This document shows, piece after piece, positions 13,628-29,880 of a stretch of 38,444 nucleotides of DNA; positions within the stretch are counted from its first letter, which is position 1; each line of letters begins with the position of its first letter. Both the position numbers and the translations under genes were made by a program. The stretch is from Candidatus Nanopelagicaceae bacterium (GTDB lineage: Bacteria > Actinomycetota > Actinomycetes > Nanopelagicales > Nanopelagicaceae), in NCBI GenBank assembly GCA_018882885.1, contig VERG01000016.1, positions 1 to 38,444 on the forward strand. The letters run 5' to 3'. Below the pieces are notes generated by a model. That model saw nothing but the letters and a program-made list of their open reading frames with translations, searched no databases and had not been told where the DNA came from.

Positions 13628-14980
13628 GTGAGTATTGCTGAGGAGCTACGCAAGGTTCTTGGTGACCAGGCCACCATAATTACCGATACAGCGGTATTGC
13701 CTTCTTATTCTCGAGATCAATCACAGATTGCAAAAAACGGTACTCCAGCTGCTGTACTACTTGCCAAAAACGAGTCAGAGATTGCCGCTGCTTTGAAATT
13801 TGCTCACGCCAACGCAATTCCAGTTGTAGCGCGTGGAGCTGGTAGCGGTTTATCAGGCGGCGCAAATGCGGTCGATGGCTCAATCGTAATTTCACTTGAA
13901 AAAATGAATCGAATTATTGAAATTGATCCAACAAATCTAATTGCGAGAGTAGAGCCGGGTGTAATTAATCTCGAATTAGACAAAGAGGTTTCGCAATTTT
14001 CTTTAGCATATCTTCCAGACCCAGCGAGCCGAGAGTGGTCAACGATTGGTGGGAATGTTGCTACCAACGCGGGCGGCATGTGCTGTGTTAAATATGGAGT
14101 CACTTCTCATCATGTACGCGCCATTCGAATGGTTACCGCTGACGGAAATGTTGTTGCTTTGGGTTCTGCGTTAAAGAAATCAGTAACAAACCTTGATTTG
14201 CTGCATTTGATTGTGGGCTCTGAAGGAACCTTAGGGATCATCACGGAGATAACAGTTGCTCTTGCGGTTCGTCCAAAACCGGCCACTACATTGATCGCAA
14301 CCTTTGCCTCAATTGAAGAGGCTATGAGGGCGGTTCCAGAGTTAGTCGCATTGGCTCCTTCGATGTTGGAGGTAGTTGATGCAACAACATTGCGGGCGGT
14401 AGAAGAGTGGAAGCCATTGGGTTTTGAAGGTGTTGGAACCGTCCTACTAATGCAAAGCGATGAATCACCAGATATCTGTGCCAAAGGGGTGCAGATTGCT
14501 GAAAAACATGGAGCGATTGATGCTACCTACTCAGATGACCCTAAAGACAGTGCAGATTTAATTCAGGTCAGAAAGCTGGCTTATCCCGCACTAGAACGCA
14601 AGGGGGCGGCGTTACTTGATGATGTCTGCGTACCAATCTCACAGATTTCAAATTTGGTAACCGCGGTTGAGAAAATCGCCTCAGAATCCGGTTTATTAAT
14701 TGGAATCTTTGGTCATGCCGGAGATGGCAATATGCATCCAACTATTGTCTATGACCACGGTGATGCTGATGCAGAATTTAAAGCGGTTGCTGCTTTTAAT
14801 CAGATAATTAAAGTGGCGCAGGATTTAGGTGGTACCGCATCAGGAGAGCATGGAATTGGCTCAATCAAGGTCGAATCAGCTCTTCGTGAATCTGGCGAAA
14901 AGATTATTGAATTACAACGGGCTATAAAGAAGGTATTTGATCCAAAGGGCATTCTTAACCCGGGAAAGAAAATTCCTTAA
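13628..14980 (+). CDS. FAD-linked oxidase, GlcD/D-lactate dehydrogenase-like
   Basis: A 450-aa flavoprotein. The PCMH-type FAD domain (about 35-215) shows ARGAGSGLSGGANAVDGSIVIS, AGGMCCVKYG, and GSEGTLGIITEITVAL. The C-terminal cap/FAD-oxidase domain ends with GIFGHAGDGNMHPTIVYD and GTASGEHGIGSIK, whose histidines are typical of D-2-hydroxyacid oxidation. The family includes glycolate oxidase GlcD and D-lactate dehydrogenase. Its position beside a MurNAc-6-P etherase pathway, which releases D-lactate, makes D-lactate the favoured substrate, but this is inference. No GlcE/GlcF partner is present in the window. The 3' end overlaps the convergent serine hydrolase gene by 26 bp. Confidence 0.85.
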   Translation: MSIAEELRKVLGDQATIITDTAVLPSYSRDQSQIAKNGTPAAVLLAKNESEIAAALKFAHANAIPVVARGAGSGLSGGANAVDGSIVISLEKMNRIIEIDPTNLIARVEPGVINLELDKEVSQFSLAYLPDPASREWSTIGGNVATNAGGMCCVKYGVTSHHVRAIRMVTADGNVVALGSALKKSVTNLDLLHLIVGSEGTLGIITEITVALAVRPKPATTLIATFASIEEAMRAVPELVALAPSMLEVVDATTLRAVEEWKPLGFEGVGTVLLMQSDESPDICAKGVQIAEKHGAIDATYSDDPKDSADLIQVRKLAYPALERKGAALLDDVCVPISQISNLVTAVEKIASESGLLIGIFGHAGDGNMHPTIVYDHGDADAEFKAVAAFNQIIKVAQDLGGTASGEHGIGSIKVESALRESGEKIIELQRAIKKVFDPKGILNPGKKIP

Positions 14981-15983
14981 ACTCTTCTGACCAAATCTCA
15001 TTCATTGTCTTATATTCTCCTTTGGTATGAATTCGATTGCTCAAATAAACCCATCCTTTTTTGCTCTCTAAATCAACAGCAAATCCTGTTCCGGTAAATC
15101 CAAAATGCCCAATTGCGAAACCTCCTTGTGCCAATGGAAATCTTCTAAAACCAATCCCTTGTACTGGGTTATTACGAGGTTTCGAGAACTGTTGCAACCT
15201 CTCAATTGGTAGGAAGCCGTCCAACAATCCCAAAACAAACTTATTCAAATCTGACAGGCTTGAGAACAATCCAGCATGCCCGGATTCACCATTGAATATG
15301 TGAAAAGCATTGCCATCATTTATCTCCCCGGAGAGTATGTAATCCCGCCAGCCGGCGAAATCCTCAACTTTTTCAGGCACGGGGTAGGGCTGTTTGGACT
15401 CCACCATCTTCTTTTCAATGCTGTCTCCAATCGAGGTTGCAACAACATTTTTTGGATCCGCCGGGCGAGAAAAAACAGTATTTTCCAAGGCTAGTGGGGT
15501 AGCTACCCGAGCTGCGAAAATCTGATTTAGATCAGCGTCATACAACTTTCTAAGCAAGATTCCCAAGGTAATAAAGTTCAAATCGCTGTAATGGAACTCT
15601 TTTTGCTTTGGGTACTTCAATGGCAAGTTAGCAATCTTTTGGTTAACCTGCTCGGGAGTTGAGCAGGATATATAAAACGGACGCCATTCTTCAGTACCTG
15701 ATTCATGACGTAGCAGATCTTCGACAGTCAGATCTTTTTTATCTTCAACTTTCCACTCTGGTAGATATCGAGAAATCGGATCATCAAGCTTTAGGAGTTT
15801 TTCTTCAATGGCGCACATAACTAAGGTGGTCGTGCAAAGAACTTTTGTGATTGAAGCTAAATCAAAACTACTCACTTCATTAATGGGTGTGGGATCTGCA
15901 ACCCCAAATTCAGAGGTAAAACCCCGTACCTGAGAAGCCACATTTCCTGCCGATATTTGGGAAATCGCCACCGCAGATGTCAT
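14955..15983 (-). CDS. Cytosolic beta-lactamase-fold serine hydrolase (possible AmiE-like muropeptide amidase)
   Basis: A 342-aa serine hydrolase of the beta-lactamase/PBP4-type fold. The nucleophile motif SxxK is S44-ITK47 in FDLASITKVLC; the second motif is YSD in FHYSDLNFITLG; the third is HFGFTGTGFAVD. No signal peptide is seen, so it should act in the cytosol, unlike true beta-lactamases and PBPs. In Bacillus subtilis a protein of this fold (AmiE/YbbE) removes peptides from MurNAc and is encoded with murQ-murR. Here the gene overlaps the dipeptide epimerase by 4 bp (ATGA) next to a MurNAc pathway. A similar amidase or peptidase role is therefore plausible but unproven; an esterase is the alternative. 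Confidence 0.75.
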   Translation of the reverse strand: MTSAVAISQISAGNVASQVRGFTSEFGVADPTPINEVSSFDLASITKVLCTTTLVMCAIEEKLLKLDDPISRYLPEWKVEDKKDLTVEDLLRHESGTEEWRPFYISCSTPEQVNQKIANLPLKYPKQKEFHYSDLNFITLGILLRKLYDADLNQIFAARVATPLALENTVFSRPADPKNVVATSIGDSIEKKMVESKQPYPVPEKVEDFAGWRDYILSGEINDGNAFHIFNGESGHAGLFSSLSDLNKFVLGLLDGFLPIERLQQFSKPRNNPVQGIGFRRFPLAQGGFAIGHFGFTGTGFAVDLESKKGWVYLSNRIHTKGEYKTMNEIWSEEFKEFSFPG

Positions 15984-16945
15984 GAATGCACAATACTTCC
16001 CTGATAACTGATTGGACTCTCTTCAAACCACCATGCAGCATCCAAATCATGGGTTGCCTCAGGATCCAATTGGTGAGCTAAATAGCTGGCGGCCTTAATC
16101 CCTAGAACCCCTTCCATCATGGAGCCGATTGAAACCTTTAGGCCAGAGTTAATTGCCTGATTAGCTAGTTGCAAGGCCGGTGTGACCCCTCCGGCTTTCA
16201 AGATCTTTACATTGAGGTACTGAAAGGCCTGTGTTTCAACTACCTTTTCTAAATCCGTCTGTGAAAAACAGGATTCATCAGCCATGAGTGGAATATTGCA
16301 CTCTTGCGCCAGAGCGGCATGGCCCAATAAATCAGCTTTGGGCAATGGTTGCTCCAAATACTCAATATTGGCGCCACATTTAGCTATCTCTCGAGCAGCC
16401 GATATTGCATATTCCAAGCTCCAAGCTTGATTGGGATCAATTCTAATTATGGCGTTCTGACCTGCTTCCTGCCTAATAATCTCTATACGTTGCAGTAGAT
16501 CTGATATCTCCTCTTGTTTTACCTTTAACTTAAAGGTGTCAAAGCCTGCGGTTACCCTTTCCCTTACAATCGCTTTCAAATCCGCCAACTCTGCAATGGG
16601 TACCGTGACATCAGTAGCTACAGAGCAACTCGGATGTTTCTCGGTATTCCAAAGCGCCATATCAAGTGCAGCCTTAGCGCTGGGGAAGATCTCCAGTTTT
16701 GAAATTATCTCTGGACTTATTTCTCTCAAACCTTGAACCGCCGGTGAGTGGAGTTGTCGCAAAATAGCCTCATGCGAGTCCCCTGATATTTGTGGCGTGG
16801 CGACGCACTCTCCTACACCGAAGCGACCATCGATTAATTCAATCACCACCTGTATTACTGGATAAGCGCTAACACTTCGCAAGGCAGTGACAAAAGACTC
16901 TCTCAGCCTTATGGATTTTTCAGTAACCGTGATACTTTTAATCAT
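15980..16945 (-). CDS. Dipeptide epimerase, L-Ala-D/L-Glu type (enolase superfamily)
   Basis: A 321-aa muconate-lactonizing-type enolase superfamily enzyme. The catalytic lysines sit in FKLKVKQ and on the other side in LNVKILKAGG. The Mg ligands are Asp in IRIDPNQAW, Glu in EYLEQPLP, and Asp in LMADESCF. Near the C-terminus HDLDAAWW carries the DxD motif that dipeptide epimerases use to hold the substrate amino group. It would convert murein-derived L-Ala-D-Glu to L-Ala-L-Glu for hydrolysis and reuse. Its ATG touches the ATG of the divergent GNAT gene with no spacer. It forms a pair with the downstream serine hydrolase. Substrate preference is predicted from motif and context. Confidence 0.88.
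   Translation of the reverse strand: MIKSITVTEKSIRLRESFVTALRSVSAYPVIQVVIELIDGRFGVGECVATPQISGDSHEAILRQLHSPAVQGLREISPEIISKLEIFPSAKAALDMALWNTEKHPSCSVATDVTVPIAELADLKAIVRERVTAGFDTFKLKVKQEEISDLLQRIEIIRQEAGQNAIIRIDPNQAWSLEYAISAAREIAKCGANIEYLEQPLPKADLLGHAALAQECNIPLMADESCFSQTDLEKVVETQAFQYLNVKILKAGGVTPALQLANQAINSGLKVSIGSMMEGVLGIKAASYLAHQLDPEATHDLDAAWWFEESPISYQGSIVHS
16933..16938 (+). promoter_or_regulatory. -10 box for the GNAT gene inside the epimerase coding region
   Basis: TACTTT lies at -13 to -8 from the ATG at 16946. Because the two divergent start codons abut, this promoter lies within the first codons of the epimerase gene. Confidence 0.4.
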
Positions 16946-17440
16946 ATGGAGTTTCGCACCGCTTCTCTATCTGATTTAAGCGATATCGCCGCGTTGTTCC
17001 ATGCCTGTTGGCATATCTCGTATAAAGATCTGCTTTCCGCCGAAGTGCGCTCGGAGATGACCTTAGATAACTCTGCTGATTTATGGCGACCATCTCTGAT
17101 TGATCCCAAAGGTAAAGAGACCGTAGTTGGAATTTTGGATTCCAAGATCGCTTCGGTATTTAGAATTGGTGAAGATAAAGATGACTCGACCTTAGGCCAC
17201 TTGTTCTCGCTATATGTTGATCCAAAAGTTGCTGGAAAGGGATTAGGTAAAGCCTCTTTAAACATGGCTGCTGAAAAACTGGCTGAAAAAGGCTTCAAAT
17301 CAATGAGTTTATGGGTATTTGAGAAAAATGCTATCGCCCGTAACTTGTACCAAGGTTTCGGCTTCCAGCTCACTGGAGAATCAAGGGTTGATGAACGCTG
17401 GAAGGAAAATGAGGTCAAGATGCGCAAGGAGTTTACCTAA
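16946..17440 (+). CDS. GNAT family N-acetyltransferase
   Basis: A 164-aa GNAT protein. The acetyl-CoA site is in LFSLYVDPKVAGKGLGKASLN (about residues 89-109), where the family has Q/R-x-x-G-x-G/A; here it reads KVAGKGLG. The end of the fold shows LWVFEKNAIARNLYQGFGFQLTGE, the usual N-x-x-A-x-x-x-Y-x-x-x-G-F element. It transfers acetyl from acetyl-CoA to an amine; the acceptor is unknown. It is the only plus-strand gene inside the minus-strand peptidoglycan cluster and ends with an 8-bp overlap of anmK, so its link to the pathway is uncertain. Confidence 0.85.
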   Translation: MEFRTASLSDLSDIAALFHACWHISYKDLLSAEVRSEMTLDNSADLWRPSLIDPKGKETVVGILDSKIASVFRIGEDKDDSTLGHLFSLYVDPKVAGKGLGKASLNMAAEKLAEKGFKSMSLWVFEKNAIARNLYQGFGFQLTGESRVDERWKENEVKMRKEFT

Positions 17441-18590
17441 TAACTACTCGGTAATTTCCTTCTGGTTTTGGTTCAGGCAACTGTAGTGGTTTTGCTCCAG
17501 GAGTAAATGATCCTAGAACTCGATTGCCACTAGCGCCGGTGCATGATGGAATCGCGCCAGGAAGTCCAAACCAGGATAAATAACCAATTAATGCAAAGGT
17601 TGCCGCCTCTTTTTGTCTCGGATCCAAACCTAAAACCGACATGGGTTGCACTCTGCAATTTGGCAGGCGCTGGGAAAATCGCTGCATCATTAGTGGGTTT
17701 GCTGAACCTCCACCATGTACATACATATCTTTAAGCCCAAATCTTTCTACCTCAATCGCCACCGTCTCGACAGTTAACTCTAAGAGAGTGCGAATTACAT
17801 CTGCAATCTTCCAAGTAGAAACTTCACCAAAGTATTGTTTTATATAGGGCAGATGAAATAGCTCTTTACCCGTGGACTTTGGAGGTGGGGCTTGATAGTA
17901 AGGCTCTTGCAACATCTCCTTTAGAATTTTCTGATTTACCTCACCCTGTAAAGCAATTTGAGAGTCTCTATCGAATTTAATGGCTCCATCGGAATGGGCT
18001 TGTAAAGCCGCATCCATCAAACCATTTGCTGGTCCAATGTCATATGCAATCGGAACCATTCCTTTGCCGGTTACTGTGATATTTGAAATTCCACCTAAGT
18101 TCAAAGCTCCCACCGGTTCGGCATAATCACCAAACATCATCTGATCAATTAGGCTGACAAGAGGAGCGCCGTGGCCACCAGCTGCTACATCGCGGGATCT
18201 GATGTTAGAAAGTACTGGAATTCCGGTCTTTTCTGCGATCCAGGTTGGCTCTCCGAGCTGGAGGGTGCCTAAAGCATGGTTTGATTCAATCCAGTGATAG
18301 AGCGTCTGACCATGAGATGCGATTAGAGAAACATCATGTTGACCCATTAGCTCTTTAGCGGCGGAGGCAAAGGCCTGACCAATATAGGTATCTAATTTAC
18401 ATACCCGTTCCATGTCAACGGTGCGCGGCGGCATCGCAGCGGCTATTTCGCCGTGAAGTTCTTCGCTATAGGGAACGCTTTTAAAATCCAGAACCTGAAC
18501 TGTGATTTCTTTATCGCTTTCCTGAAAATCGCATAAAGCAACATCAATACCATCGTAAGAGGTTCCTGAAATCATTCCGATTATCTTCAT
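17433..18590 (-). CDS. anmK: Anhydro-N-acetylmuramic acid kinase
   Basis: A 385-aa sugar kinase of the AnmK family, slightly above the usual ~370 aa. The N-terminal GMISGTSYDGIDVAL is the ATP-binding signature; further conserved stretches are ASHGQTLYHW, LQLGEPTWIAEKTGIPV, NLGGISNITV, DIGPANGLMDA, and VHGGGSANPLMMQ. It opens the 1,6-anhydro ring and phosphorylates in one step to give MurNAc-6-phosphate, the MurQ substrate. It is the last gene of the long operon and overlaps oppF by 4 bp. Its presence shows that 1,6-anhydro sugars, made by lytic transglycosylases, are a substrate of this cluster. Confidence 0.95.
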   Translation of the reverse strand: MKIIGMISGTSYDGIDVALCDFQESDKEITVQVLDFKSVPYSEELHGEIAAAMPPRTVDMERVCKLDTYIGQAFASAAKELMGQHDVSLIASHGQTLYHWIESNHALGTLQLGEPTWIAEKTGIPVLSNIRSRDVAAGGHGAPLVSLIDQMMFGDYAEPVGALNLGGISNITVTGKGMVPIAYDIGPANGLMDAALQAHSDGAIKFDRDSQIALQGEVNQKILKEMLQEPYYQAPPPKSTGKELFHLPYIKQYFGEVSTWKIADVIRTLLELTVETVAIEVERFGLKDMYVHGGGSANPLMMQRFSQRLPNCRVQPMSVLGLDPRQKEAATFALIGYLSWFGLPGAIPSCTGASGNRVLGSFTPGAKPLQLPEPKPEGNYRVVIR

Positions 18591-19537
18591 TTCAAAACCT
18601 CCGGACAGGCTACTAGATGGGATTTGGTGGCATTTAATAACTCTGGAACCTTTAACTTACAACTTTCTACCGCTAATGGACAGCGCTGATGAAAGGCGCA
18701 GCCTTGTGGCAGATTGGCGGGATCTGGAACCTCTCCCTCCAATACATTTTCAAAATCAATGCCTCGAACATTGGTGTGTTCAGGAATCGATTCAATCAAA
18801 GCCTTTGTATATGGATGCTTTGGATTATTAAGCACTTCATCCCAGGTTCCATACTCAACAATTCGGCCCAAATACATAACCGCTATCTCATCGCTGATAT
18901 GTCGAACCATAGAAAGATCATGGCTAATAAATATATAAGTTAAATTAAACTTATTTTTGAGATCAACCAGTAGGTTCATTACATCGGCTCTGACCGAAAC
19001 ATCAAGAGCTGAAACTGGTTCATCCAATACCAACAACTCAGGTTCCGCTGCCAAGGCTCGTGCAATTGCAACACGTTGGCGTTGGCCACCGGAAAGTTGG
19101 TGCGGGAAGCGGGTTTGCATATCTGCCGCAATTCCTACCACCGCAAGTAATTCAATAACCCGGGCGCTGATTTCCGCATCGCCTCTTAATTTGTGAGTCT
19201 TCAATACTTCGGCGATACAAGCCCCGATGGTTTGTCTTGGGTTCAACGAGGAGTAAGGATCTTGGAATACCAATTGTGTTTTTGAATGCCTACTGCGAAA
19301 TGTGTTTTTAACCCCTTGACCAAGCGGTGATCCACTCCAAAGTAAAGAGCCTTCAGTTGGTGGCTCTAATCCCACAATAAGTCGTGCCAGGGTAGATTTT
19401 CCGCAACCACTCTCACCAACAATTCCTAGGGTTCTGCCCTTCTCCACTGAAAGAGTAATGCCATTTAGCGCATTAACAACGCTCTTGCGTGCTCGAATGC
19501 GGTATCGCTTCGTAACATTATTAATACTCAAACTCAT
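18587..19537 (-). CDS. oppF: Oligopeptide-type ABC transporter ATPase (OppF-like)
   Basis: A 316-aa ATPase. Walker A is GESGCGKST, the signature LSGGQRQRVAIARAL, Walker B LLVLDEPVSALD, and the switch His is in FISHDLSMV. The C-terminal PYTKALIESIPE and CAFHQRCPLA stretches are the oligopeptide/dipeptide ABC C-terminal domain. With OppD it powers the OppB/OppC channel. Overlaps with oppD and anmK are 4 bp each, placing it in the muropeptide operon. Confidence 0.92.
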   Translation of the reverse strand: MSLSINNVTKRYRIRARKSVVNALNGITLSVEKGRTLGIVGESGCGKSTLARLIVGLEPPTEGSLLWSGSPLGQGVKNTFRSRHSKTQLVFQDPYSSLNPRQTIGACIAEVLKTHKLRGDAEISARVIELLAVVGIAADMQTRFPHQLSGGQRQRVAIARALAAEPELLVLDEPVSALDVSVRADVMNLLVDLKNKFNLTYIFISHDLSMVRHISDEIAVMYLGRIVEYGTWDEVLNNPKHPYTKALIESIPEHTNVRGIDFENVLEGEVPDPANLPQGCAFHQRCPLAVESCKLKVPELLNATKSHLVACPEVLK

Positions 19538-20496
19538 TGCTTAACCCCCAACGGAAAGAAGCAAGCAACAGAACTTGATTCATTGCTAGTTAGCTCTGGA
19601 CGGTGGCTAGAGCAGATATCTCTGGCCTCTTTACAGCGCGGAGCAAAAGCACAGGTGTTAAGAACCTGCCATGGTTTGGGCGGTACACCAGGAATTGATT
19701 CCAATCTCTCTCTATCTCGACCAGCTGCCGGTAGTGAGGCTAGTAAGCCTGCGGTGTAGGGATGCTTTGGTGCTTTGAAAATTTCATCAACAGTTCCAGT
19801 TTCAACTACTCTTCCGGCATACATAACAATTACTCTGTCAACAAGATTGGCCACTACTCCTAAATCATGGGTGATCCAAAGCATCGACATATTGCGACGC
19901 TTTCTCTCTTTAGCTACCAGCGCCAGAATCTGTCTTTGAATAGTTACATCAAGGGCGGTAGTTGGCTCATCTGCTATCAATAGTTCGGGAGACAGCAACA
20001 ACGACATTGCGATCATCACTCTTTGTCGCATTCCGCCAGAAAACTCATGCGGGTAACTATCAAAAGCTCTATTCGGATCAGCGATTCCAACCGCAGCCAA
20101 ACCATTGAGAATATGGGTTTTCTGATCGGTAATTTGATGTTGGTGAGAGTCCAATACCTCCTGTAACTGCTCGCCAATCTTCATAACTGGGTTCAACGCG
20201 GTCATAGGATCCTGATAAATCATCGCTATTTCTTTACCGCGAATACTGCGCAAATCCTCAGCTGAACTCTTAAGTAGATCTGCTCCTTTGAATCTAATCT
20301 CGCCAGATTCAATCTTTAAACCCCTGGCTAGCAAACCAAGAATTGAAAGTGCGGATAAAGTTTTTCCAGAGCCGCTCTCGCCAACGACTCCAACAGCTTC
20401 TCCTGGCTTAATTTCAAAGCTGACATCATTAACTAAAACTCTCTTATCCTCTGAAATTACTACGGATAGATTCTTAATCTCGAGTAGGTTGGTCAT
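19534..20496 (-). CDS. oppD: Oligopeptide-type ABC transporter ATPase (OppD-like)
   Basis: A 320-aa ATPase. Walker A GESGSGKTLSALS, Q-loop region MIYQDPMTALNPV, signature FSGGMRQRVMIAMSL, Walker B LLIADEPTTALDV, and switch WITHDLGVV are all intact. The C-terminal domain PYTAGLLASLP and CAFAPRCKEA is the Opp-specific extension that in relatives carries a Cys cluster. It is the second ATPase of the transporter, overlapping oppC and oppF by 4 bp each. Confidence 0.92.
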   Translation of the reverse strand: MTNLLEIKNLSVVISEDKRVLVNDVSFEIKPGEAVGVVGESGSGKTLSALSILGLLARGLKIESGEIRFKGADLLKSSAEDLRSIRGKEIAMIYQDPMTALNPVMKIGEQLQEVLDSHQHQITDQKTHILNGLAAVGIADPNRAFDSYPHEFSGGMRQRVMIAMSLLLSPELLIADEPTTALDVTIQRQILALVAKERKRRNMSMLWITHDLGVVANLVDRVIVMYAGRVVETGTVDEIFKAPKHPYTAGLLASLPAAGRDRERLESIPGVPPKPWQVLNTCAFAPRCKEARDICSSHRPELTSNESSSVACFFPLGVKQ

Positions 20497-21350
20497 CCGC
20501 TACTCCTACGTGCTGGATCTAGGGCATCTCGCAAGCCATCTCCAACCAAATTTAAACCAACCACCACAACAGTGATAAAGAGCGAAGGGAATGCCAATGT
20601 CCACCAGGCAAATGAGGCTAAAGCTTGAGCTTCAGAAACCATTAAGCCAAGAGAGGCATCTGGTGGTTGAGTTCCTAAACCTAGGAAGGAAAGACCAGAC
20701 TCAGTCAGAATCGCCCAGGATAGTGAGAGTGCAATCTGCACCACGATAGGAGCCAAAACATTTGGCATGACATGTCTAATCAGAATCCGTGGTGTTGAAA
20801 AACCTAACACTCTTACCGATTTTACGTAATCCATCTCCTTAACGGTGAGGACCGGTCCTCGAGCGACTCGAATAAAGATTGGGGTGTAAACAATTGCAAT
20901 TGCAATAGAGGTATCAATCCAAGAGTTACCCAAGCTATTTACAATGGCAAGGGCCAACAAAATCGCAGGGAAAGCAAAGATCACATCACTAGCTCTTACA
21001 ACAAGATTGTCGAGCCAACCACCGAAAAACCCGCCAACAACGCCAAGAAATACCCCTACAACAGCGGCAAGTCCGACCGAAAGCAGAGCTACTGATAGCG
21101 AGCGGCTCATACCATCAATGGAGCGAGAAAAAATATCTCGACCAAATTGATCGGTACCAAACCAATAAGTACCACTCGGTCCCTGCAAAGCATCAATTGG
21201 GTTCTGCTCTAATGGATCAATGGGTGCCAGATTCAGTGCAGAGACAATAGAGAGAATAACCATAACCAAAACTAAAAATAAGCCAATAACTCCAGAGGTG
21301 CTCTTAAAGTAATAATGCACCCAATCTCTTCTACCGGTCGAGGTTTTCAT
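20493..21350 (-). CDS. oppC: Oligopeptide-type ABC transporter permease (OppC-like)
   Basis: A 285-aa inner-membrane permease. It begins with a short cytosolic stretch, a first helix (GVIGLFLVLVMVILSIVSAL), and a periplasmic-type segment YWFGTDQFGRDIFSRSIDGM that is the OppC/DppC mark. The EAA-type coupling loop is VRVLGFSTPRILIRHVMPNVLAPI. ATG at 21350 is chosen because it gives an ATGA overlap with oppB, as elsewhere in this operon; the longer reading from 21383 would overlap oppB by 37 bp. Confidence 0.92.
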   Translation of the reverse strand: MKTSTGRRDWVHYYFKSTSGVIGLFLVLVMVILSIVSALNLAPIDPLEQNPIDALQGPSGTYWFGTDQFGRDIFSRSIDGMSRSLSVALLSVGLAAVVGVFLGVVGGFFGGWLDNLVVRASDVIFAFPAILLALAIVNSLGNSWIDTSIAIAIVYTPIFIRVARGPVLTVKEMDYVKSVRVLGFSTPRILIRHVMPNVLAPIVVQIALSLSWAILTESGLSFLGLGTQPPDASLGLMVSEAQALASFAWWTLAFPSLFITVVVVGLNLVGDGLRDALDPARRSSG

Positions 21351-22291
21351 TTGATTCTTGGATCCACCTTTCGATAGACCCAATCAGTGATTAGGTTGAT
21401 AGTTACAAATAGGATCGCAAAAACCATGATGCTGCTTTGCACGGTCGCATACTCACGCTTATTAATGGCATCAAGAATCTGACGTCCCATTCCAGGCAAA
21501 GCAAAGATTTTCTCAACAATTACCGCTCCACCCAAAAGATAGCCAAATTGAATTCCCGTCATGGTAACGATTGGAATTAAAGAATTTCTTAAAACATGTC
21601 GTAATCTGACAATTCTTGGTTTTACGCCTTTGCCATATGCGGTTCGTACAAAGTCTTTATCTACCGTCTCCAACAAAGCAGATCTAGTTGTGCGCATGAT
21701 TGGTGCTGCTACCGCAATTCCTAGTACCAAGCTTGGGAAGAGCATCTGCTGTAAATTCATCGAAAGATCCTCAAATGGCGTCATGTATTCGTAGCCATTC
21801 GGAAAGTATTGAAACTTATTAGCCATCACAGTGACTATGGTTGTACTCAAAACAAAACCTGGAATTGCAAGGGCGAGCAAACCGAAAAATTGGCCGAGAA
21901 AATCACGGGCGCTGCCAGGCTTACGGGCGCTGAACATGCCTATTGAGATACCGATTAAAACCCCAAGAATTGTGCCAAATAAGGCTAACTGCATAGTTAC
22001 GAGCAGCGCTGACTTTGTTAAATCCCAAACTGGAGCACCTGTTGAGTATGAAAAGCCTAGATCTCCCGATAAAAAGCTAGCCATCCAGGATAGGTACTGT
22101 CCGACTAATGGTTTATCTATTCCGTAGTAGGCACGCAAAGTATCAATCTGCTCTGGCGTCAGTACTCCAGTCTCAATGCCCAAAGAACTGGTTATGGTGT
22201 CGCCTGGGATAACCCGCAATACAACAAAGACAAACACGGAAATTCCGAAAAGTGTGGTCAGTACTGAAGCTAAACGCTTAAGAAATCCCAT
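21347..22291 (-). CDS. oppB: Oligopeptide-type ABC transporter permease (OppB-like)
   Basis: A 314-aa permease starting with the typical helix LASVLTTLFGISVFVFVVLRVIPGD. The YGIDKPLVGQYLSWM and GDLGFSYSTGAPVWDL stretches and the EAA-type loop TAYGKGVKPRIVRLRHVLRNSLIPIV fit OppB/DppB. It pairs with OppC as the channel. A strong stem-loop (22338-22371) separates it from oppA upstream. Confidence 0.92.
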   Translation of the reverse strand: MGFLKRLASVLTTLFGISVFVFVVLRVIPGDTITSSLGIETGVLTPEQIDTLRAYYGIDKPLVGQYLSWMASFLSGDLGFSYSTGAPVWDLTKSALLVTMQLALFGTILGVLIGISIGMFSARKPGSARDFLGQFFGLLALAIPGFVLSTTIVTVMANKFQYFPNGYEYMTPFEDLSMNLQQMLFPSLVLGIAVAAPIMRTTRSALLETVDKDFVRTAYGKGVKPRIVRLRHVLRNSLIPIVTMTGIQFGYLLGGAVIVEKIFALPGMGRQILDAINKREYATVQSSIMVFAILFVTINLITDWVYRKVDPRIK

Positions 22292-22337
22292 TCACCTTTT
22301 CCTATTAATTTCTAGAATAAAAACTTTATTAAAAATG

Positions 22338-22371
22338 TGAGGCGTGTGGAGTTTCCCCCACACGCCTCACC
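22338..22371 (-). terminator. Stem-loop between oppA and oppB (attenuator/partial terminator)
   Basis: GTGAGGCGTGTGG (22338-22350) and CCACACGCCTCAC (22359-22371) form a perfect 13-bp stem with an 8-nt loop. On the transcribed strand it is followed by ATTTTTAATAAAG, giving a short U tract as in intrinsic terminators. It begins 10 bp after the oppA stop codon. Placed inside an operon after a binding-protein gene, it would protect the oppA message and reduce read-through into the permease genes. Confidence 0.8.
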
Positions 22372-22381
22372 TAACTACTTA

Positions 22382-23896
22382 CTATCCAAGTGTTGCGGAG
22401 CGAAGCTGTAGCAAAGATCCATTTGCTAAAGCTGAGAATCCACGAAGTTTCTTGGTAGCTACTCGATACTCATATGGAGTAGCAAGCCATACCCAAACCG
22501 CGTTGTCCTCCAACTCTTTGGAGATTGCGGTGTAGGCACCTTTACGTTCTGTCACTTTTCCGCTCGCCTTACCCTTGATGAAGTTTGCGTCAAGAGTTGC
22601 AGATGAGTAAGAGGCAACCTTGTTCAGGTTTCCAGTTGATGTGAAGTAACGGGTGTACATAGTGTCTGGATCGATACGACCACCATTGTTTGCCAATGTT
22701 GCAACGAAATCAGCAGCTAGCCAACGTGGAACATATGTTGCTTGCTCAACGATATCTAGCTCCATTGTGATGTTGGCCTTTGCTAATTGCGCCTTCAAGT
22801 TCTGCGCCATGGCAACTGATGTAGCCCATCCAGTGCTGGTTACCAATGTCTTGAAGGTAACGCCTGATGACTTACCTGCTGCTGCTAGGTACTCCTTGGC
22901 CTTTGCTAGATCCTGCTTAGGGCATGGACGAGCATTTACATCAGAGCGATAAGCCGGGCTTGTGATTGGACCGGTTACCTGCCCTTGACCGAGAAGCGCA
23001 GTATTGATGAGCTCTTGGCGATCAATTGCACATTGGAGCGCCAAGCGCACATTCTTATCATTGAAAGGTGCAACCTTGGTGTTGAACTGCAATGCGTAAT
23101 AACCCAACGCTGGTGTCTTGAACATCTTTAAATTGCTTTTTACCTGACGTGCGATTAGCGGATCGGTAACAATTCCCATTCCAATGGTTCCTGCGTTTAG
23201 GGCAGAGAGGATTGAGGCTTCGGTTGGGATTACGCGAATAGTTACATCTTTAATCTTTGGCTCACCCATGAAGTAATCAGCGTTGGCTGAAAGCTTCAAA
23301 GATTGGGTTGGCTCCCAAGAAACCCACTTATAAGGACCGGTTCCATTTGGCTTGTTGCTGCCGCCAATCTTTCCGGCATCGATATCAGCCTTGGAAAGCA
23401 TCGCCATGTTTACACCTTCCAACGCAGCAAGAATTGGTGCATTTGGAATCGACATGGTCAAAATCAACTTGCGGCCATCAGCCTTGATTGAAGTAATAGT
23501 CGCGATGTTTGCGCGAGCTGCAGCACCAGTCTTGGTATCAAGAATGCGCTCTAGAGATGCCTTTGCATCCTCAGCATCAAATGTTGAACCATCGTGGAAC
23601 TTAACACCTTCACGAAGATTTAAAGTAAGAGTTTTTCCATCTTTGGAAAAAATCCAAGAGGTTGCAAGACCGCCTTTGAGGGCGTTCTTTGCACCGATTT
23701 CAATCAAGCTGCCATATACCAAACCAAGACCACGCACTGTTGCGAAGTTTGTTGCAGTGTGTGGATCGGTCTTATCAATATCTAGGACGCTACCAATAAC
23801 TAGGCTGGTATCAGCAGCCTTTGCTGGTTGGGTTACGAGTACGCCGCCAAACATGGCTGCAATCGCAACGCCGGTCCATAATTTACGTAGTTTCAC
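22382..23896 (-). CDS. oppA: ABC transporter substrate-binding protein, family 5 (OppA-like)
   Basis: A 504-aa secreted solute-binding protein. The start is GTG at 23896, with AAAGGA 6 bases upstream and a standard signal peptide beginning at this codon (LRKLWTGVAIAAMFGGVLV, cleavage after AKA). An upstream ATG at 23965 overlaps the kinase stop but would put an odd 23-residue tail before the signal peptide. The mature part has the family core (DPHTATNF, SWIFSKDGKTLTLNLREGVKFHDGSTFDAEDAKASL). The operon context suggests it binds murein peptides or muropeptides, though general peptides are possible. There is no lipobox Cys after the signal peptide, unusual for a Gram-positive SBP. Confidence 0.9.
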   Translation of the reverse strand: MKLRKLWTGVAIAAMFGGVLVTQPAKAADTSLVIGSVLDIDKTDPHTATNFATVRGLGLVYGSLIEIGAKNALKGGLATSWIFSKDGKTLTLNLREGVKFHDGSTFDAEDAKASLERILDTKTGAAARANIATITSIKADGRKLILTMSIPNAPILAALEGVNMAMLSKADIDAGKIGGSNKPNGTGPYKWVSWEPTQSLKLSANADYFMGEPKIKDVTIRVIPTEASILSALNAGTIGMGIVTDPLIARQVKSNLKMFKTPALGYYALQFNTKVAPFNDKNVRLALQCAIDRQELINTALLGQGQVTGPITSPAYRSDVNARPCPKQDLAKAKEYLAAAGKSSGVTFKTLVTSTGWATSVAMAQNLKAQLAKANITMELDIVEQATYVPRWLAADFVATLANNGGRIDPDTMYTRYFTSTGNLNKVASYSSATLDANFIKGKASGKVTERKGAYTAISKELEDNAVWVWLATPYEYRVATKKLRGFSALANGSLLQLRSATLG

Positions 23897-23961
23897 TTGC
23901 TTTCCTTTCAAACGAGGGTTGTGATAATCCTTCTCTTTTATTTGCTGTAGGTCAAGGATGG

Positions 23962-24828
23962 TCATGACTTTGCACCAAATTTGGCAGCGGTTAATGCATG
24001 ATCTCCATTACTAGTTAAAACTGCGACTCCCAATTGACTCTCAACCAATTCACGCACTCCAACAACTTCTTCAGCTATACCGCCGCCAAATGCCAGCGGA
24101 ATACCCTCTTTATTAAGGGTTTTCTGCGCTCTTTTGATTAGCTCAACTAAGTGTTGTGCCGCACTTTCTAGAATTATTTTGGCACTAACTACACCTGACT
24201 TAGCGGCCTGCGATACCAAAGGCGTTAGAGCGGCTATGGCAGAGCGGTCTCTGCCATAAACATACTCACGGATCGAGCTCCAATCAGCCCCACCTACAGC
24301 CTCATTGATTCTTTGAGATAGGCCATCTAAATCCTGTGACTCTTCAATTTGAAATAACAAATGTCTCAAAGCTTCCCGGCCAATCCAATAACCAGCTCCT
24401 TCATCGCCAAGAAGATAGCCCCAGCCCCCAAAAGTTATTTCCTCTCCATCTTTTGTGATGTGCACCGCTACAGAGCCGGTTCCGGCATAAAGGTAAATTC
24501 CCTGACCTGGGGCAAACATTGAGTAGTAAGCCAATGCGATATCAGAGCTCAAATTAATCTTGGCCTTTGGAAATACTGTTTTTAACTCCTCTTCAATTAA
24601 TTTCGGTGCCCCAAATCCGGTTATTCCAATAGAGATAACATCAGGAGTTAAATCCCCTAACTCTCTTTTGATTGCCTCGGTAAAGCTGCGGAACTTTTCT
24701 AGAGAATCACTGCGGTATAGATGGCCATCGACTGGAGGCAAAGACCCTCGTTTTAAAACCTCTCCTGATTCATTTACTAAGCACCATTTAGCTGAGGAAG
24801 CACCGCCGTCGACTCCGAGACTCAACAT
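23962..24828 (-). CDS. BadF/BcrA-type sugar kinase, N-acetylglucosamine/N-acetylmuramic acid kinase-like
   Basis: A 288-aa kinase of the ASKHA fold in the BadF/BadG/BcrA group, which contains N-acetylglucosamine kinase and MurK. Phosphate loop 1 is LGVDGGASSAKWCL, the second LYAGTGSVAVHI, then WGYLLGDEGAGYWIGREALR, all hallmarks of amino-sugar kinases. Adenosine-site FGGGIAEEVV lies near the C-terminus. It would phosphorylate GlcNAc and/or MurNAc entering through the neighbouring sugar transporter. Its position between the permeases and oppA in a cluster with murQ makes MurNAc a strong candidate. It begins 4 bp after the permease gene, with GAAAGG as ribosome binding site. Confidence 0.88.
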   Translation of the reverse strand: MLSLGVDGGASSAKWCLVNESGEVLKRGSLPPVDGHLYRSDSLEKFRSFTEAIKRELGDLTPDVISIGITGFGAPKLIEEELKTVFPKAKINLSSDIALAYYSMFAPGQGIYLYAGTGSVAVHITKDGEEITFGGWGYLLGDEGAGYWIGREALRHLLFQIEESQDLDGLSQRINEAVGGADWSSIREYVYGRDRSAIAALTPLVSQAAKSGVVSAKIILESAAQHLVELIKRAQKTLNKEGIPLAFGGGIAEEVVGVRELVESQLGVAVLTSNGDHALTAAKFGAKS

Positions 24829-24832
24829 GACA

Positions 24833-25657
24833 TTAGCCTTTCACAGCACCAGCTGTGAGCCCCTTAATGAATTGCTCAGATAACACAAGGTAAAGAACTA
24901 CCAGAGGCAACGCTGCTAAGCAAAGGCCGGCAAAGAGAACCCCCCATTGAGAGGCGTACTGCCCAAAGAAAACCGTTAAGCCCTGCATCAAGGTTTTCTT
25001 CTCCGGAGTTTGTAAAAACACCAAAGGAAGAAAGAAATCATTCCAAATTGGAATTGCTGAATAAATAGCGACAATAGCCATTCCAGGGCGTACCAAAGGC
25101 ACTAAAACTCGTCGCAGAAGCACTATCTCACTAGCGCCATCGATGCGCGCTGCATTATCTAAATCATTGGGCAATGATCTAAAGAAACCACTCATTATGA
25201 ATACCGCGGCAGGTAATGCGGCAGAGGTGTAAACCAGAATTAATCCAAGACGAGAATCCAAGAGACCCATCCACTTCAATTGAATAAAGAGAGGCAGAAT
25301 CGCCAGTTTGGCTGGTACCAGCATGCCGGTCAAGATAAATCCAAATATCAAATTATTACCTTTGAATTGATAACGACCGAGAACAAACCCAGCACCAAGG
25401 GCCAAAATCAAAATCAATATAAGAGAGCCGCCTGTAATTATTAACGAGTTGAAAAAGTAAGAACCAAAAGAACCTTCGCTCCAAACCTTGGAATAGTTCT
25501 CCCAGTAAGGATCTCTGGCTAGCGCAAAGGGAGTGCTGGCAAAATCATTTGACTCTCGTAATGAAGAGTTGAGTAGAAAAAAGACCGGCAACAAAACCAT
25601 TATCGAGTTGATAATTAAAACACCTTGAAAGAAAATCTTAGAACGCAAGAGTTTCAT
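24833..25657 (-). CDS. Carbohydrate ABC transporter permease (MalG-like)
   Basis: A 274-aa permease with six hydrophobic helices. The coupling loop NAARIDGASEIVLLRRVLVPLVRPGM is the EAA motif of CUT1 sugar transporters. It starts with a TAATG overlap on the MalF-like gene. Together they form the membrane channel for the binding protein encoded upstream. No ATPase gene is in this cluster; Actinobacteria commonly use a shared MsiK ATPase encoded elsewhere, which is the likely solution here. Confidence 0.92.
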   Translation of the reverse strand: MKLLRSKIFFQGVLIINSIMVLLPVFFLLNSSLRESNDFASTPFALARDPYWENYSKVWSEGSFGSYFFNSLIITGGSLILILILALGAGFVLGRYQFKGNNLIFGFILTGMLVPAKLAILPLFIQLKWMGLLDSRLGLILVYTSAALPAAVFIMSGFFRSLPNDLDNAARIDGASEIVLLRRVLVPLVRPGMAIVAIYSAIPIWNDFFLPLVFLQTPEKKTLMQGLTVFFGQYASQWGVLFAGLCLAALPLVVLYLVLSEQFIKGLTAGAVKG

Positions 25658-26574
25658 TACTGCTCAACCTCGCGCTTTCTCAACATCTTTGATCCAAAGG
25701 CGGCACCCAAGCCAACCAAGGTAAAGATCAAGACCCCTAAGGCAGAACCGACGCCAACATTGTTAGCTCCGGAATCAATTGAGCCAAATGAGAGTCGATA
25801 GAACATCAAAGCTAATGTGTCGGTAGCCCCCGCAGGACTACCGTTTGAGCCACCCAGAACAAAGGGCAGGTCAAACCATTCATATGCACCGATAAAGGTA
25901 AGGACCGTAATTATTGTTAAAGAAGGTGCCAGAAGAGGGAAGATTATCCTGCGGAAAATTTGGCCTTCAGATGCACCATCGATGCGGGCCGCCTCAATAT
26001 ATTCAGTATTTATTGCGTTTAAACCAGCTAAGAAGACAATGGCTGGGAATCCGACCCAGCGCCACAAGTTAATGAACATCAAAGTTGGTAGCGCGGTTGC
26101 GGTATCACCCAACCAAGGCTTGGCAAACTCAGGTAAACCAATTCCGGTGATGATCTGATTAACCGGACCATAAAACGGATCCAATAACGCCTGCCATAAG
26201 TAACCAACAACAACAAGAGAGAAAATTACGGGAAGAAAAACTACAACTCTATAAAGACGCAGACCCCTTTTAATTCGAAACATGGCGTAGGCAAAGAGCA
26301 GGCCTAGAGAGGTCTGAAAGGTCATAATCACAACAAAGGCGATGGTGTTATGTTTTAGCGCTGCAAATAATTGATCTGAATAGGGATATGCAAATAGTTT
26401 TTGGAAGTTTTCTAAGCCATTAAAGCTGCCGCGTTGAAAACCATCCCAAGCGAAAAAGGCGTAGCTCAATGTCGTTAATGCTGGAATAGTTGTAAAGATA
26501 ATGATTACCAACAACGCAGGAATCAATAAAGCACCAGTAGTGCGATTTTGTTCTCTACGCAGCGCTGAGGACAT
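25657..26574 (-). CDS. Carbohydrate ABC transporter permease (MalF-like)
   Basis: A 305-aa permease with six helices and the coupling loop EAARIDGASEGQIFRRIIFPLLAPSL. The N-terminal LLIPALLVIIIFTTIPALTTLSYAFF and AYEWFDLPFVLGGSNGSPAGATDTLALMFYR stretches (the latter read in two parts) fit CUT1 family MalF-like proteins. AGGAG sits 5 bases before the ATG. Two hairpins separate it from the binding-protein gene upstream. Confidence 0.92.
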   Translation of the reverse strand: MSSALRREQNRTTGALLIPALLVIIIFTTIPALTTLSYAFFAWDGFQRGSFNGLENFQKLFAYPYSDQLFAALKHNTIAFVVIMTFQTSLGLLFAYAMFRIKRGLRLYRVVVFLPVIFSLVVVGYLWQALLDPFYGPVNQIITGIGLPEFAKPWLGDTATALPTLMFINLWRWVGFPAIVFLAGLNAINTEYIEAARIDGASEGQIFRRIIFPLLAPSLTIITVLTFIGAYEWFDLPFVLGGSNGSPAGATDTLALMFYRLSFGSIDSGANNVGVGSALGVLIFTLVGLGAAFGSKMLRKREVEQ

Positions 26575-26592
26575 TTGAGCTCCTGTTAGAAA

Positions 26593-26638
26593 TTCTCTAG
26601 ACAGAGAAATCTGGGCGCGGGGTTAACCGCGCCCAGAT
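26593..26638 (-). terminator. Double stem-loop between sugar-binding protein and permease genes
   Basis: ATCTGGGCGCGG (26609-26620) and CCGCGCCCAGAT (26627-26638) make a perfect 12-bp stem with a 6-nt loop. Directly next to it, TTCTCT (26593-26598) and AGAGAA (26603-26608) form a second, small hairpin. The stem is very GC-rich in an AT-rich genome. There is no clean U tract, so it more likely acts as an RNA-stability or attenuation element than as a full terminator. Confidence 0.75.
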
Positions 26639-26652
26639 ACTCCCTCGATTTC

Positions 26653-27927
26653 TTAGGACTTACCCTTTTGAGGTCCGTACCAAGAGGAGACAGCGGTCTG
26701 TACATCCTTAGCAAGTTGCTCAGGGGTTGTACCGCCGACAATCAGCTTCTGGAATCCAGGCTGAAGGATTGATGAGCTGGTTGGGTTCTCATAACGGAAG
26801 CCAACAACATTCAGGAACGGTGTTCCTAGAGTTGTACGCCAACGGTTGATTTCCTTAACAGCTGGATCGTTGATCTTTACATAAGGTGCGGTTGGGATGA
26901 ATGCAATTTCATCTACTAGCGCTTGCCCAAAATCCTTGGTGCCAAGGAAGTTGAGGAATTTGAGCGCTGCAGCCTTATTTGCGGTCTTTGCATTGATTGC
27001 ATAGGCGCCATCAGCCCAAGTTCCGACGTATCGCTTTGCGCCAGCGTTGGCCTTAGGAGCTGGGAACCAACCGATAGTGATTGATGGGTTCAAGGAACGG
27101 AAATAACCGATCTCATAGTTACCACCGATATAGAACGCAGCTTTCTCATTAGCGAAAAGTCCACGAGCAGTGTTGTAATCAATTCCTTGGTAGTTAGCAG
27201 GCATGTACTTAGCAAGATCTGCAACAGCCTTGAGGCTGGCTACATAACCTTTATCGGTAAATGTCTTCTTACCTGCAACAACATCATTAAAGAATGAGGT
27301 TCCACCATAGAAGGTTGGACCAACTGTGGCATGAAGCTGCTCAAGAGCAGGACCATTACCGCCAGCATTTCCAATTGGTAGGAATCCAGCTTTCTTTACC
27401 TTGTCAAAAGCAGCCAACATTTGAGACCAGGTTTGTGGCAAAGCACGCACTCCAGCCTTATCCAAAATCTCTGGGTTATACATAACTCCAAGAGCAGAAA
27501 CTGCGTAAGGCAATCCGTACTGCTTCTTATCCTTGTAACCCTGTGCACCAGCAAGAATTCCAGCAGGAAGTTTCTTTAGAGCTGGAACATCTGATGTTGA
27601 AAGTGCTAGGAAATTGCCAGCATCAGAAAGGTTTGCCATTCCGCCGTAAGGACGCATCTGAATGATGTCTGGTCCTTTTCCTGCGGTCAACGCGGTTGAA
27701 ACAATCGCGTTGTATTCAGTATTTAGATAAGGAGTGAACTTAACTGAGATACCAGGATTCTTAGCTTCGAAAAGCTTAATCTGGCTCTCGTAGAACGCCT
27801 TATCTTCGGTGCGCCAACTCCAGAATGTTAACTCTGTGTCAGCAGAAGCTACAGAAGCTCCAGGTGCAACCACGGTAGCTGCCGCAAAAAGTGCTGCGAC
27901 GAGACCGCGGAAACGTTTGATATTCAC
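26653..27927 (-). CDS. Carbohydrate ABC transporter substrate-binding protein, family 1
   Basis: A 424-aa secreted sugar-binding protein. The signal peptide (RFRGLVAALFAAATVVAPGA) ends near ASA-DTE, and the mature protein begins ELTFWSWRTEDKAFYE, typical of family 1 SBPs. The start is GTG at 27927 with a strong GAGGAGG site 7 bases upstream, lying in the last codons of the regulator gene. Conserved LPYAVSALGVMYNPEILDKAG and GTWADGAYAINAKTANKAAA are visible. The likely ligand is an amino sugar or a disaccharide of the cell wall (GlcNAc, MurNAc, or GlcNAc-MurNAc), from context. It lacks a lipobox Cys. Confidence 0.9.
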   Translation of the reverse strand: MNIKRFRGLVAALFAAATVVAPGASVASADTELTFWSWRTEDKAFYESQIKLFEAKNPGISVKFTPYLNTEYNAIVSTALTAGKGPDIIQMRPYGGMANLSDAGNFLALSTSDVPALKKLPAGILAGAQGYKDKKQYGLPYAVSALGVMYNPEILDKAGVRALPQTWSQMLAAFDKVKKAGFLPIGNAGGNGPALEQLHATVGPTFYGGTSFFNDVVAGKKTFTDKGYVASLKAVADLAKYMPANYQGIDYNTARGLFANEKAAFYIGGNYEIGYFRSLNPSITIGWFPAPKANAGAKRYVGTWADGAYAINAKTANKAAALKFLNFLGTKDFGQALVDEIAFIPTAPYVKINDPAVKEINRWRTTLGTPFLNVVGFRYENPTSSSILQPGFQKLIVGGTTPEQLAKDVQTAVSSWYGPQKGKS

Positions 27928-28857
27928 TTAATTTCCTCCTCGAGGGCGGTAGGTGTGGTTCTTTCCGGAGCGGATTGATACAGCTGCTCTTGAAAGATCT
28001 AGAGCGGATTTTGTACCACTCCAGTTTCTCTGTGCCAATGCGACGCAGAGACAGTCAACCACCGTTAATTGCGCAATGCGCGATGCGGTCGCGCCGCTGC
28101 GGAAGGTGGTTTCCCGCGCGGCGGTATTAATTACATAATCTGCTAAAGAAACCGCTGGACTTCTCATTGCGTTGGTTATCAAGACAATAGTTACACCGCG
28201 GTCCTTAAACTCTCTCATGGCATCAACTGTGTCTACAGTGGTGCCAGAGTGGGTAATGGCAACAAATACATCACCTTTTTCCAAAACTGCGATTGAGGTC
28301 ATTGCAGAGTGAAAATCAGTCCAGGCAATTGCTCTTTTAGAAAGACGATTGAGTTTTGATTGAAAATCCATCGCTACGAATCCACTAGAGACCAGACCAA
28401 AGAGTCCAATGATTTTGGCTTTTTCAAAAAGTTCAATTACTTTTTTAAAGGTCGCAATATCAATCTTCTCGGCCGTGGACTCGATGGCTCTTGCATCGGA
28501 GTAAGTTACTTTTTCAATAATGTCACTTAAGGAATCGGTTGGCGTAATTCCACCATCTAAGAACTCGGTATCAAATTGTTTGGCACTCTTCCAAGAAAGA
28601 TCTCCCACCAGCGCCATCTTGAATTCGGGATAACCTCGAAAACCCAGCGCTTTACTAAATCGCACCACAGATGAGACCGAGGTTTTGCTATGAGAAGCAA
28701 GCTGGGTGATATTCATCGTCGAGGTGCGTTTTGGATCCTTGAGAATTGAGTTTGCAATGGCGGTTTCACTCGCGTGAAATGTTCCTAATTGACTTTGGAT
28801 GAGCTCTAAGACATTGGAGTGCGGGGTATGTGCAACAACAGAAAGTTGCTTAGCCAT
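27928..28857 (-). CDS. murR: RpiR/MurR-family transcriptional regulator
   Basis: A 309-aa regulator. Residues about 15-90 are the RpiR helix-turn-helix (NILKDPKRTSTMNITQLASHSKTS... SSVVRFSKALGFRGYPEFK). The C-terminal half is a SIS domain (KIIGLFGLVSSGFVAMDFQSKL, FVAITHSGTTVDTVDAMREFKDRG) that binds phosphosugars. In MurR the ligand is MurNAc-6-P. ATG at 28857 is chosen because GGGGGAG precedes it. It is the first gene of the long operon, and a strong promoter with a perfect inverted repeat lies just upstream, suggesting self-regulation. The ligand could also be GlcNAc-6-P. Confidence 0.87.
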   Translation of the reverse strand: MAKQLSVVAHTPHSNVLELIQSQLGTFHASETAIANSILKDPKRTSTMNITQLASHSKTSVSSVVRFSKALGFRGYPEFKMALVGDLSWKSAKQFDTEFLDGGITPTDSLSDIIEKVTYSDARAIESTAEKIDIATFKKVIELFEKAKIIGLFGLVSSGFVAMDFQSKLNRLSKRAIAWTDFHSAMTSIAVLEKGDVFVAITHSGTTVDTVDAMREFKDRGVTIVLITNAMRSPAVSLADYVINTAARETTFRSGATASRIAQLTVVDCLCVALAQRNWSGTKSALDLSRAAVSIRSGKNHTYRPRGGN

Positions 28858-28879
28858 AATCTCCCCCGTGAAAAATCCT

Positions 28880-28895
28880 TTCAGCAAACGCTGAA
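28880..28895. promoter_or_regulatory. Candidate operator for the MurR-like regulator
   Basis: TTCAGC (28880-28885) and GCTGAA (28890-28895) form a perfect inverted repeat with a 4-bp spacer. It starts 8 bp downstream of the -10 box, covering the predicted transcription start. Such placement would let a bound repressor block the polymerase. Confidence 0.6.
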
Positions 28896-28903
28896 CTTGG
28901 TGA

Positions 28904-28932
28904 AAATTATCGCCTTACTCGCCTAAGGTCAA
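28904..28932 (-). promoter_or_regulatory. Sigma70-type promoter of the murR operon
   Basis: On the minus strand TTGACC (28932-28927) and TAATTT (28909-28904) are separated by exactly 17 bp, close to the housekeeping consensus. It lies between the murQ stop and murR, so murR and its followers can be transcribed independently of murQ. Confidence 0.75.
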
Positions 28933-28935
28933 GGG

Positions 28936-29853
28936 TTATTGCTGTGGTTTTAAAGCCTCTCGGACCCGGGAGTTGGCTGACTCCAATGCGGAAATCGCCT
29001 CGGTAGGGGTGACTTGTAACAACAACATAACAATTGCAACCTTCACCTGATTGTTTGCCGCCAACAAAGCCGCTTCGGCCCGCTTTGCATCTACCTGAGT
29101 AGCGGCTTGAATTATTCGGATTGCGCGATCTCTTAACTTCACATTGGTAACTTGGAGATCGACCATCAAATTACCAAAAGTCTTTCCTAAATTAATCATG
29201 GTTACAGTTGAGATCATATTTAAAACCAATTTTTGTGCTGTACCGGCTTTCATGCGAGTTGAGCCGGCAAGAATCTCAGGACCTGAATCAATCTCAATTG
29301 CAACATCTGCATACTTAGCCATCTCCGAGTTTGGATTACAGGTTAAAGCAACAGACAGCGCTCCTACACTCCTAGCAAACTCCATAGCACCGATTGCATA
29401 AGGAGTTCTTCCACTAGCTGCGATTCCAACTACGGTGTCTTGTTTGGATAAATCTAATTTTCGTAGCTCTGGAATTGCTCCATCACGATTATCTTCGGCT
29501 CCTTCAATTCCTTTTCTAAGAGCCGCATCGCCACCAGCAATCAGACCGATCACTACGCCATCTGGAATCGAAAATGTTGGAATACATTCAGAGGCATCCA
29601 GAACTCCTAAACGTCCAGATGTGCCTGCCCCCACATAAATTAATCTGCCGCCTTGAGACATGCGCTTGGTTATTTCCAAAATCGCTTGCTCAATCTGTGG
29701 CAAAACTTTTCCCACAGAAAGTGAGACGCCTTGATCATTTTCATTTATTAGCTTCAATAGCTCTGAAGTAGTTAAGAAATCTATCTGCGAATAGCGCGGA
29801 TCGATAGTCTCAGTGTTGAGCTGGCCTAAATTCTCTTTTTGGCTTTCAGTCAT
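28936..29853 (-). CDS. murQ: N-acetylmuramic acid 6-phosphate etherase
   Basis: A 305-aa SIS-domain lyase, normal length. Visible signatures are TETIDPRYSQIDFLTTSELL at the N-terminus, the phosphosugar-binding IYVGAGTSGRLGVLDASECIPTF (read in two parts), GAEDNRDGAIPEL with the catalytic-type Glu, GIAASGRTPYAIGA, CNPNSEMAKYADVAIEID, and LAGSTRMKAGTAQK. It cleaves the D-lactyl ether of MurNAc-6-P to give GlcNAc-6-P and D-lactate in the cytosol. It stands upstream of murR on the same strand, 78 bp away, and is divergent from the TspO gene with only 27 bp between starts. Confidence 0.96.
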   Translation of the reverse strand: MTESQKENLGQLNTETIDPRYSQIDFLTTSELLKLINENDQGVSLSVGKVLPQIEQAILEITKRMSQGGRLIYVGAGTSGRLGVLDASECIPTFSIPDGVVIGLIAGGDAALRKGIEGAEDNRDGAIPELRKLDLSKQDTVVGIAASGRTPYAIGAMEFARSVGALSVALTCNPNSEMAKYADVAIEIDSGPEILAGSTRMKAGTAQKLVLNMISTVTMINLGKTFGNLMVDLQVTNVKLRDRAIRIIQAATQVDAKRAEAALLAANNQVKVAIVMLLLQVTPTEAISALESANSRVREALKPQQ

Positions 29854-29861
29854 GATGTCTA

Positions 29862-29874
29862 ACCCTAGTAACCT
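29862..29874. promoter_or_regulatory. Back-to-back -10 boxes for murQ and tspO
   Basis: ACCCTA (29862-29867) reads TAGGGT toward murQ, 14 to 9 bases before its ATG. TAACCT (29869-29874) lies 12 to 7 bases before the TspO ATG at 29881. The two boxes are adjacent in a 27-bp gap, and both genes would be leaderless or nearly so. Confidence 0.45.
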
Positions 29875-29880
29875 TTACCC

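Follow-up and report, generated by a model that had tools for sequence, protein, structure and literature searches.

The gap between murQ and murR in a genome of the family Nanopelagicaceae raises the question of which DNA element controls the recycling genes that follow murR and which protein is likely to bind it. The analysis was centred on a stretch of 38,444 nucleotides (the window), where murR is read on the minus strand just behind murQ. Eleven genes had been assigned to the murR promoter in a preliminary description of this DNA; the count is 14 co-directional genes, from murR down to position 14955, which make up a near-complete peptidoglycan-salvage set. The genes concerned are:

28936..29853, minus strand: murQ, MurNAc-6-phosphate etherase (TIGR00274, 377.7 bits, cutoff 302), just upstream of murR
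27928..28857, minus strand: murR, RpiR-family regulator (Pfam HTH_6, 3e-19; SIS, 5.5e-20)
23962..27927, minus strand: sugar ABC transporter (substrate-binding protein, two permeases) and BadF-type sugar kinase (Pfam)
18587..23965, minus strand: oppABCDF, Opp-type peptide ABC transporter (Pfam)
14955..18590, minus strand: anmK, a 161-aa protein, an enolase-superfamily epimerase-like protein and a beta-lactamase-family protein (Pfam; no family for the 161-aa protein)

The window MurR contains the N-terminal HTH_6 domain and the C-terminal SIS phosphosugar domain of the RpiR/MurR family, and its solved relatives are 4ivn (a transcriptional regulator) and E. coli MurR (7en5). The E. coli MurR equivalog NF012026 returned 133 bits against a cutoff of 408, and the best match was PRK11337 (171.8 of 378); the regulator is MurR-like by context and not an E. 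coli MurR equivalog. Its recognition helix, TS[VIA]xxVVRF, is shared by the orthologs of the family. The 161-aa protein (16942-17427, minus strand), which matched no Pfam family, is encoded between anmK and the epimerase gene in the majority of the family's recycling operons, shows 35-40% identity among family members and is probably an uncharacterised peptidoglycan-salvage protein. Strong minus-strand hairpins were also observed directly 3' of the sugar-binding-protein gene sbp1 (26609-26638) and of oppA (22337-22370), with equivalents of different sequence and similar size and position in most relatives; they are likely attenuators or 3'-end stabilisers raising the levels of the binding proteins over those of the permeases.

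The murR promoter region was then described by the following features:

28927..28932, minus strand: -35 element TTGACC, from the sequence
28904..28911, minus strand: -10 region GATAATTT, from the sequence, conserved columns 6-13 of the element described below
28880..28895, minus strand: inverted repeat TTCAGC-GTTT-GCTGAA, lineage-specific, overlapping site 2 and the variable spacer of that element

On the minus strand, TTGACC (28932-28927) is followed after 17 nt by TAATTT (28909-28904) and then by the repeat TTCAGCGTTTGCTGAA (28895-28880), which ends 22 nt 5' of the murR ATG at 28857, itself preceded by a GGGGGAG ribosome-binding sequence. All three strings occur as originally reported, while the description of a near-consensus promoter, among the best of the window, was overstated, as TAATTT shares just 3 of 6 positions with TATAAT and the TTGACC-17-TAATTT pair is absent from the 13 sites scoring at least 9/12 in the window scan. 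The -10 region GATAATTT can be read in two ways, as GATAAT with a 15-nt spacer or as TAATTT with a 17-nt spacer, and GATAAT (28911-28906), two bases 5' of TAATTT, is the better -10 match. TTGAC at a spacer of 15 or 17 nt from the [GA]ATAAT position was found in 33 of 36 distinct copies of the element. The expected transcription start falls at 28897-28899, and the repeat, which had been placed over the start point, begins about 2-4 nt downstream of it.

Orthologs of murR, called at an E value of 1e-60 or better, were found in 35 of 296 family genomes (Nanopelagicales, acI actinobacteria), and their 33 distinct upstream regions were aligned. The orthologs share, in a conserved order, TTGAC, GGCGATAATTTTCACC, a variable stretch and TGAAA-N5-TTTCA, thus outlining a two-part element of 47-50 bp that overlaps the repeat and differs from it:

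28867..28916, minus strand: the conserved element as a whole, predicted to be a bipartite MurR operator (alignment A1, 50 columns)
28899..28914, minus strand: operator site 1, GGCGATAATTTTCACC, overlapping the -10 region (strongly conserved columns 3-18)
28869..28883, minus strand: operator site 2, TGAAAGGATTTTTCA, a TGAAA-N5-TTTCA palindrome in the leader (columns 34-48)

Spacing of the TTTTCA cores, read from the ungapped alignment, was 32 bp in 28 of the 33 distinct elements, 33 bp in three and 31 bp in one, the remaining element (L072) having no recognisable second site. Two 15-bp sites repeated at 32 bp, i.e. three helical turns, give an element of 15 + 17 + 15 = 47 bp. Most core columns hold 1.6-2.0 bits, compared with about 0.1-0.3 bits in most spacer columns. 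Site 1 consists of a single good half-site, the other half (GGCG) being degenerate, while the palindrome pairs of site 2 are formed in 92% of cells. The distance from site 2 to the start codon varies among orthologs, which argues against a translation signal, and in L035 (G121) a different gene lies upstream and yet the element is intact, so that its conservation is not a by-product of the coding end of murQ. A second conserved motif, CGTTA[CT], often arranged as TAACG-N4..6-CGTTA, was observed in other genera only (L016, L040, L042, L043, L045, L055, L057, L061, L062, L063 and L070), where it precedes the element at a fixed distance of 26 nt and the -35 element by about 10 nt; it is absent from the genus of the window. 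This motif is possibly an activator site, and certain genomes may have it partly within the end of the preceding coding sequence.

The distribution of the element was evaluated with a sequence-only model (R1) built from the murR upstream regions alone. The window genome gave a single strong match (E=8.5e-13), the next one being at 0.2. Sites at an E value of 1e-5 or better occurred in 32 family genomes, 30 of which have murR, so that strong copies are present in 30/35 genomes with murR vs 2/261 without it (Fisher p about 1e-33, in a test that counts related genomes as independent and whose model came from the murR upstream regions). The two site-bearing genomes lacking murR are 74% and 61% complete, and in both the site precedes oppA. 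The murR-upstream matrix also located the element before oppA in 14 genomes and before sbp1 in one; in these 15 gaps, all outside the training set of the matrix and with related genomes still counted as independent, the best score was higher than in any of the 500 shuffles, and every site lay on the coding strand with the 32-bp spacing. Gene maps showed that separate peptide-transporter or sugar-transporter operons each carry their own copy. In three genomes (L017/G026, L064/G329 and L065/G328) murR has no adjacent element, and in two of them murR is distal in an opp operon that has one. Since the out-of-sample sites score above all shuffles, the element tracks operons rather than the murR gene, and these sites are the strongest evidence that it would act as a regulatory site of the pathway. 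A sample of 395 genomes from the class yielded no copy outside the family at an E value of 0.001, and a scan of viral contigs with the exact pattern gave no match. In G171 (L125) the cluster is rearranged, with murQ-murR diverging from an opp-anmK operon; here the element faces oppA, between murQ and oppA, and none was found before murQ.

Conservation, regulon and geometry, as read from these genomes, strongly support a MurR operator at the murR promoter that would control the recycling operon. The element adjoins murR and the MurNAc-6-P genes, lies over the promoter and, in 28/33 orthologs, consists of two sites 17 bp apart and 47 bp in all, as in a MurR-type operator. An operator of another amino-sugar regulator, e.g. 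NagR or a LacI-type protein, is an alternative, and the additional CGTTA[CT] motif in several genera suggests a second regulator. However, the co-occurrence of element and murR (30/35 vs 2/261), the autoregulatory position, the RpiR-type motif and a geometry like that of E. coli MurR all favour MurR, and we regard a different regulator as improbable.

A MurR operator at this promoter, controlling the recycling operon, had already been proposed, and that part of the proposal was strengthened by the comparative evidence; the sequence chosen for it, the inverted repeat, was not, as it is not conserved. The element extends over 28867-28916, and much of site 2 lies outside the interval 28880-28932 originally indicated. 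The arms of the repeat are perfect at 28880-28895 and also in the closest sister genome, G018, but these are the only two of the 33 distinct upstream regions with a perfect repeat, and conservation before orthologous murR genes, suggested at the time as a check, is therefore absent. Across 21 representative aligned orthologs, the two arms match in 39.7% of cells, compared with 38.7% in shuffles, and the left arm sits in the variable spacer (columns 22-27, each under 0.35 bits). Conservation does extend over the right arm, GCTGAA, and the -10 region, but as pieces of a different element. One further copy of the exact pattern is present in the 1.29 Mb genome, and generic repeats (6-bp arms, 3-8 nt loops) number 77 in the window, about 2 per kb, so that the repeat by itself is unremarkable. 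The repeat was thus rejected as the operator, a role we consider highly unlikely, and on the alignment the hairpin first noticed is a coincidence overlying the real two-part element. A leader RNA signal, either a murQ terminator or an attenuator hairpin, is the least credible reading and was likewise rejected: although a scan flags TTCAGCGTTTGCTGAA followed by AGGATTTTTC as terminator-like, stem pairing in relatives is no better than in shuffles, so that no conserved GC-rich stem with a T tract was found, half of the conserved element lies over the -10 region and is not transcribed from the murR promoter, and the promoter is located between murQ and the hairpin.

The predicted MurR operator was compared with known systems. 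The RpiR family forms tetramers (preprint on pneumococcal NanR, PMC12713135), and E. coli MurR represses when MurNAc-6-P is absent (PMC5061867). For the E. coli MurR operator, which lies between murR and murQ, the same preprint summarises a proposed arrangement in which one tetramer joins two promoter-overlapping sites with 17 bp between them and a total length of 47 bp (PMC12713135). The window system resembles it in that the predicted operator of a MurNAc-use regulator of the RpiR family adjoins the regulator's own gene and comprises two sites of the same spacing and total length overlapping the promoter; for E. coli, repression by a tetramer has been proposed (PMC12713135). The site sequences differ, and inspection by eye of the E. 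coli DNA between murR and murQ did not reveal TGAAA-N5-TTTCA, which indicates a different sequence specificity. Moreover, the E. coli sites overlap the -35 and -10 elements, whereas those of the window overlap the -10 region and the leader, and in place of the PTS of E. coli the window operon carries genes for ABC transporters and for many recycling enzymes, with murQ outside. NanR of S. pneumoniae, a structurally solved RpiR regulator and dimer-tetramer protein, has the consensus TCTGAAACTACTTTCAAA, an RpiR-type near-palindrome close to site 2 of the window, CTGAAAGGATTTTTCA (PMC12713135); NanR, however, activates and uses single full sites, in contrast to the pair found here, which has a fixed spacing and lies over the -10 region. 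The B. subtilis murQ-murR-murP-amiE-nagZ-ybbC cluster also has murQ, then murR and recycling genes in one direction (PMC5061867), but it has one putative promoter in front, whereas in the window the predicted operator-promoter lies between murQ and murR and uptake is by ABC transporter.

Taken together, we consider it very probable that the locus is an autoregulated recycling-operon promoter with a bipartite operator for an RpiR-family MurR, bound as a tetramer and released by a sugar phosphate. By analogy with the RpiR/MurR family, from which binding, repression and effector are drawn, one MurR tetramer would occupy site 1, over the -10 region, and site 2, some 14-30 nt past the transcription start, with its two dimers on the same DNA face three helical turns apart. 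As site 1 covers the -10 region and site 2 lies in the early transcribed region, the occupied pair would block initiation, and the bound tetramer would keep RNA polymerase from the murR-ABC-kinase-opp-anmK-epimerase-beta-lactamase operon. Imported MurNAc or anhydro-MurNAc would be phosphorylated, and the resulting phosphosugar would bind the SIS domains and release repression; since AnmK and the kinase would make MurNAc-6-P, this is the most likely inducer. Four observations speak against the MurR model: one half of site 1 is degenerate, three genomes have murR with no element adjacent to it, the E. coli DNA between murR and murQ does not show the site 2 palindrome, and murQ, whose product consumes MurNAc-6-P, was not preceded by an element in the upstream regions inspected; murQ is probably expressed on its own. 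The starts of murQ and the divergent tspO are 27 bp apart (29854-29880), and the murQ message may be (nearly) leaderless, from a promoter overlapping tspO.

Among freshwater bacteria, the acI actinobacteria rank with the commonest (PMC5301498). They are hard to cultivate, and their regulation must therefore be read from sequence. The present results predict an operator and a regulon, both testable, through which these bacteria would regulate their use of cell-wall fragments, suggest that the site spacing set by the tetramer, more than the bases, is conserved between phyla, and tie the 161-aa protein to the peptidoglycan-salvage pathway. On balance we lean towards the view that a previously undescribed bipartite MurR operator defines the complete acI salvage regulon, with the 47-bp geometry of E. 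coli kept and both bases and uptake system changed. If true, this salvage regulon would comprise the sugar ABC transporter, the peptide ABC transporter, AnmK, the epimerase and the 161-aa protein in the streamlined acI bacteria.
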